The notes below the pieces were generated by a model. The model saw only the letters and a program-made list of their open reading frames with translations, was not told the origin of the DNA and made no database searches. A DNA stretch of 64,000 nucleotides from Planctomycetota bacterium (lineage in GTDB: Bacteria > Planctomycetota > Phycisphaerae > Sedimentisphaerales > Anaerobacaceae): positions 34,766 through 98,765 of the forward strand of contig JALORE010000001.1 in the NCBI GenBank assembly GCA_025459125.1. The letters run 5' to 3'. Positions 16,944 to 64,000 of the stretch are shown here, piece after piece; position 1 is the first letter of the stretch; each line of letters begins with the position of its first letter. A program made the translations under genes and the position numbers.

Positions 16944-17334
16944 GTTCTACCCCCTCGGTCATCAGACGCTTGGCCTCGGCCACATGCAACGGCCGCAGCT
17001 GGACGTAGTGGACGTTCGATGTCACCAGCAACACCGGCATGCGCAAGTTGGCCTCACTCATCCGGCGCAGGTCCTCGCCCATGGCGTCGGGCAACCCCAT
17101 TGGCACGACACAGATCGCCAGCTCGGGCGACAGGTCCAGCTGGTCACCCTGGGCCCCCACGCGGAGGTTGTTCAAATGGATCCTGTGGCCACACTGCTGG
17201 CACTTGATCGAAGCCGCGTAGCGAACGCCGCGCACCAGGATGTTGTGCTCCCCCACCTCGGCGATCCGCTTGGCCACCCCATCGAACAACTGGGTCATCT
17301 TGTACCAGGTGGGCTTTCGCAGGGCATCTTTCAT
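16879..17334 (-). CDS. Hypothetical zinc-binding protein, 151 aa
   Basis: Contains IKCQQCGHRIHL (CxxC-G-H knuckle) and a C-terminal part AICVVPMGLPDAMGEDLRRM. The last about 20 residues (EHAEQREAGQGSQTPGGG) look out-of-frame. A run of five Gs just before the next start (16950-16954) would give TAG immediately if it were one G shorter, so the tail may come from an indel. Function unknown. Confidence 0.6.
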   Translation of the reverse strand: MKDALRKPTWYKMTQLFDGVAKRIAEVGEHNILVRGVRYAASIKCQQCGHRIHLNNLRVGAQGDQLDLSPELAICVVPMGLPDAMGEDLRRMSEANLRMPVLLVTSNVHYVQLRPLHVAEAKRLMTEGVEHAEQREAGQGSQTPGGGPALA

Positions 17335-26552: not shown

Positions 26553-26882
26553 CTACGCACCTCCTGCTCTACCGGCTCGGGCGGCCGGCGGATCACCAGC
26601 CCCACGCGCCAGCATCCATGTTCGTCGGAGTCAATGACCCTGGTTCCGCACTCGTCGCACACCCAGGACCGGACTCCACACCCAGGACCGGACTTGGGGT
26701 AGCCTGGTGTGGATGGTGATGATGTAGGTGGTTCCACAGCCGGGGCACACGGACTCCCACTCGGACTCGCCACCCAAGCGCGGCGAATGGGCGTTCTGGA
26801 ATGGCTCGGCGTTCGTGATGCCACACTTGGGGCAAACGGCTCGAACCAGATCTTCTCTTAGCTGTTCCATCTGGCTGCTCAT
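26549..26882 (-). pseudogene. Zinc-ribbon gene frameshifted by 19-bp tandem duplication
   Basis: Start ATG at 26882 (MSSQMEQLREDLVRAVCPKC), coupled by ATGA. As written, the frame ends at 26631 after 83 aa (...RLPQVRSWVWSPVLGVRR). Removing one copy of the repeat at 26658-26694 restores a frame that continues VRSWVCDECGTRVIDSDEHG and stops at 26549, overlapping the next ATG by ATGA, exactly as other gene pairs here. The restored protein would have a third CxxC pair. The break is therefore recent, a population variant or an assembly error. Confidence 0.7.
26658..26694. repeat. 19-bp-period tandem duplication
   Basis: CACACCCAGGACCGGACT occurs at 26658-26675 and again at 26677-26694 with one base between (period 19). 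The two copies are identical over 18 bp. It shifts the frame of the zinc-ribbon gene by +1. Confidence 0.9.
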
Positions 26883-63211: not shown

Positions 63212-63619
63212 CTAGTCGTCCAAGTCGGGCATCTCACCACGGGCGATCTGCCGCTCCCACTCGTCGGCCACGGGGTCACCAGTACGCCGTGGGACGCACC
63301 AGTTTTCGAGGCTCTCGTCCGCGTCTAGGGCCTGGAGGTCATCGTCGCGTTCGGAGAACAGCCGCTCCAGATCGGCTATCCTCGCCTCTGCATCGGGATC
63401 TGGCCCGTCAGCTAGAGCTCCCCGTAGTCGCGATAGATCATGTGCTGCGTCGCAGAAAAACTCCCTCAGAAGCCCTCCCTTGGTTTGGTCCTCGAAGTTC
63501 CCACCACGCTGCGCCTCGTACTTCCGGTCGTACCAGCTCTTGAGTCTCCCCCTGAGCGTCTCAGGCTCCAGCCTGGCCAGTGCCCTGATCTTCTCCAGAT
63601 CCGCGAAACGTGGCCTCAT
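63212..63619 (-). CDS. Tail assembly chaperone-like second ORF, 135 aa
   Basis: ATG at 63619 (MRPRFADLEKIRALARLE) overlaps the previous stop by ATGA. Helical, acidic C-terminus (GDPVADEWERQIARGEMPDL). Lies just before the tape measure, where the second chaperone ORF (gpT/GT-type) normally sits and is often joined by frameshifting. A -1 slip on AAAAAG in the upstream frame would read into this frame. Confidence 0.65.
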   Translation of the reverse strand: MRPRFADLEKIRALARLEPETLRGRLKSWYDRKYEAQRGGNFEDQTKGGLLREFFCDAAHDLSRLRGALADGPDPDAEARIADLERLFSERDDDLQALDADESLENWCVPRRTGDPVADEWERQIARGEMPDLDD

Positions 63620-64000
63620 GCAAGGCCACCTCCGCATAGATCCGGTCCAGGATCTGCGGATCGTGCAAATTGGACAGCTTCTCCCCCATCGCCCACGGCG
63701 GTCTTTTTCGCCCACGGCGGTCTTTTCCCGAGGCTGACCGTCAAATGCGCGACCTTCTCTGTCATATCCAAGGTGTTCAGGTCCAACGCCTCCATCGGCA
63801 AGCCCCCGTTCATCTGCGCCCGGATCGTCCCCACCTGGGTCCTCATTCTGTAGGTCAAGATCCGGTTGACGAACGTGCCGTGCCAGCGCTTCCCCCGGTT
63901 GTCGGTGTAGTCGATCTCGAACTCGTACTCGGGTTGCATCTTCGGGTCAGATGCGATCTTCTCGTACTTGTCCTCGGACGCCTCGTCCTTCCCGTCGAGG
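63616..64000 (-). CDS. Tail assembly chaperone first ORF (5' end off window), frame disturbed by 19-bp duplication
   Basis: Frame is open to the window edge (DGKDEASEDKYEKIASDPKM upstream of the track's ATG), so the true start lies outside. As written it ends VSLGKRPPWAKKTAVGDGG and stops at 63616. Removing one 19-bp copy at 63689-63726 restores GKRPPWAMGEKLSNLHDPQ followed by ILDRIYAEVALHEATF, a phrase typical of tail chaperones, ending at 63561. The duplication or a programmed frameshift therefore decides the product. Confidence 0.7.
   Translation of the reverse strand, partial: LDGKDEASEDKYEKIASDPKMQPEYEFEIDYTDNRGKRWHGTFVNRILTYRMRTQVGTIRAQMNGGLPMEALDLNTLDMTEKVAHLTVSLGKRPPWAKKTAVGDGGEAVQFARSADPGPDLCGGGLA
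63689..63726. repeat. Exact 19-bp tandem duplication in chaperone gene
   Basis: TCGCCCACGGCGGTCTTTT at 63689-63707 and again at 63708-63726, without mismatch. It adds one base modulo 3. It leaves AAAAAG at the copy junction on the coding strand, a slippery-type run. Confidence 0.95.

Follow-up and report, generated by a model that had tools for sequence, protein, structure and literature searches.

A 19-bp tandem duplication private to one assembled phage genome displaces the end of a tail assembly chaperone with a putative +1 frameshift site

Frameshifted tail assembly chaperones are known mostly in the -1 direction, as in phage lambda (PMC5009743) and in SPP1 17.5, where the site is UUUUUUC (PMC6316719). 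The direction is not constant across known G/GT-type chaperones (PMC5009743): a +1 shift has been proposed for HSTV-2 (PMC5009743, PMC8211752), and +1 shifts occur among annotated actinobacteriophage cases (PMC10885494). In bacteria, UUU_Ynn is known to be +1-prone (PMC5009743). The locus described here resembles lambda gpG/gpGT (PMC5009743) in having a pair of overlapping ORFs flanked by the tube and tape measure genes and in a short product accompanied by a frameshifted fusion, both of which are predicted here, but the lambda shift is -1, whereas the second ORF here (B) occupies the +1 frame, with UUU_C as the site. With the chaperones of the Vandenendeviridae, such as phage Adele (PMC12846349), it shares the contractile tail, a second ORF annotated as a separate hypothetical gene and a conserved T-rich site at the overlap; unlike it, those chaperones shift in the -1 direction at a GTTTTT motif. 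A proposed +1 frameshift in a tailed virus also links it to HSTV-2, although that virus is archaeal, and to the forward-shifting SEA-PHAGES tail chaperones (PMC5009743, PMC8211752, PMC10885494). The tetranucleotide logic is that of the UUU_CGN and UUU_Ynn +1 sites of influenza PA-X (UCC_UUU_CGU) and Yersinia YopN-TyeA (PMC5009743), and several of our loci read UCC UUU CGN as in PA-X; those sites belong to different genes and hosts, and the frameshift here is predicted from sequence. The chaperone thus appears to be of the known frameshifted kind, in its less usual +1 sort, and the duplication itself is not a functional feature.

The window, i.e. the whole 64,000-nt stretch analysed (G000:C436:34766-98765), reaches the end of a 98,765-bp contig, which is circular with a length of about 98.67 kb because its first 99 bases are identical to its last 99. 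It is presumably a phage binned with a bacterial genome. The start of the chaperone ORF (A), at L003:152, falls beyond the window on the other side of the circular join, and upstream of it are the genes of a tube-like protein at L003:198-644 and of a tail sheath matching PHROG 279. A 767-aa tape-measure-like ORF and baseplate genes, including Baseplate_J, follow downstream, placing the chaperone between the tube-like gene and the tape-measure-like gene, the latter assigned by position and size. The identification as a tail assembly chaperone, proposed in the initial annotation, is corroborated by PHROG 25000, which is matched by eight of the nine members tested (best E 2.6e-11) and by the intact form of this gene at 1.5e-4. 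No phage-encoded tRNAs and no Rfam matches were found; direct tblastn searches gave zero matches for the chaperone against phages and plasmids and for the tape measure against phages, and no close relatives were found in the genome contigs and 98 related genomes.

Two tandem copies of the 19-mer AAAAGACCGCCGTGGGCGA, identical at every base, lie on the minus strand (Table 1), and the copy junction reads GCG AAA AAG ACC in codons. In the two-copy frame, as assembled, the upstream ORF reads ...LGKRPPWAKKTAVGDGGEAVQFARSADPGPDLCGGGLA up to a stop codon at 63616-63618. Starting from the ATG at 63689, the reading continues after the second copy as MGEKLSNLHDPQILDRIYAEVALHEATFRGSGEDQGTGQAGA and ends at 63561; the next ORF spans 63212-63619. 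Both the perfect duplication and these frames had been described correctly in the initial annotation. Across the entire phage contig, no other perfect two-copy tandem has a unit of 13-80 nt, and the 18-mer core of the duplication has no occurrence in G000 outside these copies. Chance matching of bases does not account for it, since the other contigs of the same genome carry only about half a dozen such perfect tandem arrays per 367 kb, but repeats of this type can also form naturally. The distance from the insertion to the end of the contig is 274 bp.

Table 1 Features around the duplication, in window coordinates
Feature	Position	Strand	Basis or remark
99-bp terminal repeat of the circular contig (contig break)	63902..64000	.	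End identity
Tail assembly chaperone ORF A as assembled	63616..64000	-	Out of frame past the duplication; PHROG 25000
First 19-bp copy (reading direction)	63708..63726	-	No counterpart in the near-identical contig
Second 19-bp copy	63689..63707	-	No counterpart in the near-identical contig
Conserved C-terminal part of chaperone A	63561..63688	-	In frame with the N-terminal part only at one copy; alignment with L005, L006, L016 and others
UUU_CGC, proposed native +1 frameshift site	63603..63608	-	In-frame UUU_C in 38/43 aligned loci
ORF B (T-like domain)	63212..63604	-	+1 frame relative to intact A; conserved protein
Tape-measure-like protein, 767 aa	60899..63202	-	Role from position and size; no family match

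The IMG/VR contig IMGVR_UViG_3300037461_000409 (98,779 bp, permuted, with overlapping ends) represents the same phage at nearly every base. This twin differs from our contig by 10 SNPs over ~98.7 kb, and from the 64-kb window by three SNPs, one 3-bp indel and the 19-bp insertion; relative to L004 it shows zero differences. It carries a single copy, CTCGGAAAAAGACCGCCGTGGGCGATGGGG, and the base adjoining the first copy differs synonymously between the two contigs (GGG/GGA, Gly). L006 and L016, at about 61-63% amino acid identity, align without an insertion at the place of the duplication, and the alignment with relatives bears out that one copy restores the conserved frame. The two-copy junction is absent from every other IMG/VR contig, and a second copy of the 19-mer was found in no relative examined. 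The copy number is hence two here against one in the twin and all relatives, a single one-off case, and comparison with homologous phages leaves an error or a null mutation as its source. Judged by these alignments, the duplication is private to this assembled copy and not a feature of the phage lineage. Just across the contig join, at L003:175-264, seven SNPs relative to the twin are clustered; these look like real strain variation, as four of the five in the tube gene are synonymous. The insertion and the SNP cluster flank the contig break, each within about 300 bp, in a zone comprising 0.6% of the contig. We note that the 3-bp indel lies at window position 16957, where AGT of the twin is missing. 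Positions 26658-26694 contain another tandem (19-bp period, 1.9 copies, zero mismatches); being common to the twin, it is by this comparison natural, and it was ruled out as part of the problem.

Relative to A, ORF B of the intact twin is in the +1 frame. Its counterparts in L006 and L016 reach a first ATG, GTG or TTG only about 64 codons after the transition, although the protein is conserved from the transition onward. A start-less B with a conserved protein therefore pointed to a +1 frameshift, which was then tested more widely. Two tube-protein profiles added IMG/VR loci to the set, together with four cultured phages that have related sheath proteins, and the A ORFs of 43 loci were aligned by HMM, blind to codons. 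In all 43, cultured phages included, the +1 frame continues without a stop for 72 codons or more after A ends, and the frame is +1 throughout rather than in the lambda-like -1 direction. The native frame change is located about 80 nt further downstream than the duplication, in the +1 direction and at UUU_C, and not, as the G/GT-like -1 shift of the initial annotation would have it, at the duplication.

At the transition, 38 of the 43 loci carry an in-frame UUU followed by C (UUU_CGN, UUU_CAY or UUU_CTC), where the second of two adjacent aromatic codons was taken in loci with FF or YF. A control Phe (column 44) is UUU in 10 of 36 (Fisher p = 4e-10 against the UUU_C column, a value that overstates independence, some loci being close relatives), and in the tube genes, taken from 30 loci, UUU makes up 21% of the Phe codons. 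UUU_C is kept across loci of 42% to 67% G+C. The exceptions, L122, L128, L130, L134 and L138, retain the +1 architecture without UUU_C; in L138:5881-5921, on a contig shared with L096, UUC_CGC is followed by AAC AAA AGC, and AAA_A may serve there. Analysis of the 80 nt after UUU_C in three loci gave nothing notable as a conserved 3' stimulatory RNA structure. At L005:5364-5443, a strong predicted RNA hairpin (z -3.56) encloses UUU_C, and it is absent in the L006 homologue.

Based on this architecture, we propose the following mechanism for the intact gene. UUC is a better pairing partner than UUU for the tRNA-Phe with anticodon GAA, and a one-base forward slip on UUU_C would for this reason be favoured. 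Ribosomes would read the G-like ORF to ...HEATF, and most would finish the short G-like protein (...HEATFRGSGEDQGTGQAGA). A minority would slip +1 at UUU_CGC, with the P-site tRNA-Phe moving from UUU to UUC, and enter the downstream ORF, yielding smaller amounts of a G-T fusion (...HEATF-ADLEKIRALARL...). If they act as gpG/gpGT do in lambda, these proteins would attach to the tape measure protein and bring in tube subunits; a chaperone role is presumed for them. The +1 architecture and UUU_C together support a G/GT-type chaperone made via +1 programmed frameshifting; we infer the shift from these features, and slippage by a minority of ribosomes would take place at this site. The duplication moves the conserved chaperone end out of frame upstream of the proposed native frameshift site. 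With the frame lost before that site, the two-copy allele as written could give rise to no short (G-like) product and no long (GT-like) product, and by its reading frames it cannot make the conserved chaperone, whether it is an artefact or a real mutation.

How the second copy arose can be weighed from its surroundings. On balance, we favour a private defect, most likely a chimeric or strain-mixed assembly error, in a gene that in its intact form would be recoded by a +1 slip. The assembler would have joined the haplotypes of two strains chimerically where both meet near the contig break, thereby generating the 19-bp duplication; this origin is considered most likely because the insertion and the SNP cluster flank the break, as expected where haplotypes meet. 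Further support comes from the one-copy twin, from the lack of the junction in the rest of IMG/VR and from the relatives, which align without the insertion. Against it counts that the 38-bp array is shorter than the 99-bp overlap, so that a k=99 graph should span it. Nothing suggests that the assembler does this systematically, since perfect tandems were found near none of the other sampled contig ends (40 contig starts and 20 contigs taken fully or partially, of which three were masked as N), and systematic duplication at contig ends was rejected on this ground. Ranked second, and distinctly less probable, is a genuine replication-slippage mutation in some or all of the sampled phage genomes, i.e. 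a private loss-of-function allele of the chaperone that persists in a minority of phages, either defective or complemented. Contigs of the same genome contain natural perfect short tandems of comparable size, a single slippage event in the GGG-AAAAG haplotype would yield exactly these two copies, and the adjoining SNP cluster represents real strain variation nearby; yet such a mutation would break a conserved gene that is expected to be essential, its site is less than 300 bp from the contig break, and it is without a match in any other IMG/VR contig. Of the origins offered in the initial annotation, the assembly artefact is thus the one now favoured, while the on/off switch and the reprogrammed frameshift site are unsupported.

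That the duplication is a functional on/off or reprogramming element, with a -1 slip at AAAAAG joining the chaperone to the next ORF, is hard to sustain at all. The frame arithmetic allows it, AAA AAG is present at the junction and the B frame is open from 63715, but no relative has a second copy, the conserved DRIYAEVALHEATF segment would be bypassed by a -1 slip at GCG AAA AAG, the target frame of that slip contains stops over that stretch in L006 and L016, and a different native shift site is conserved. The slip at the junction, rejected by frame and by the stops in relatives, is as judged from the alignments neither conserved nor needed, and a length switch was rejected with the second copy found nowhere else. 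The intact gene might also do without a frameshift if ORF B were a separate gene with its own start, translated by coupling. An ATG, GTG or TTG does lie in or near the overlap in this phage and some others, and the depositors of Dolphis, PHB04 and ST4 annotate distinct genes; we nevertheless regard this as improbable, given the stretch of 36 to 64 codons past the transition that lacks any start codon in L006, L016/L088, L095, L113, L131 and L136, and the retention of UUU_C at the transition in 38 of the 43 loci. The favoured reading, an assembly error in a +1-recoded gene, resolves the reported oddity, which is a defect in a single assembled copy and not a switch, and it shows that read support is required for indels close to where circular phage contigs end.

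Beyond this phage, we think it likely that a broad group of contractile-tailed phages, including cultured members from Pseudomonas, Bordetella and Aeromonas, makes its tail chaperone by a conserved UUU_C +1 frameshift (often UCC_UUU_CGN) rather than a -1 shift. A family-wide UUU_C +1 site in tail chaperones was not found described in open-licence papers. If true, the conserved site would correct the annotation of cultured phages, in which two 'hypothetical' genes would probably be one recoded gene, and the UUU_C chaperone loci represent a natural set of +1 sites for researchers of recoding in bacteria.

In the cultured phages Dolphis (L020, MT711888.1, 9228-9822), PHB04 (L021, MF663786.1, 9239-9875) and ST4 (L023, OR261032.1, 9210-9825), UCC UUU CGN ends the ORF after the tube gene, and a +1-frame ORF extends past that stop, for which the records list separate hypothetical genes. 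Touem01 (L022) has the same UUU_CGC in an unannotated frame.
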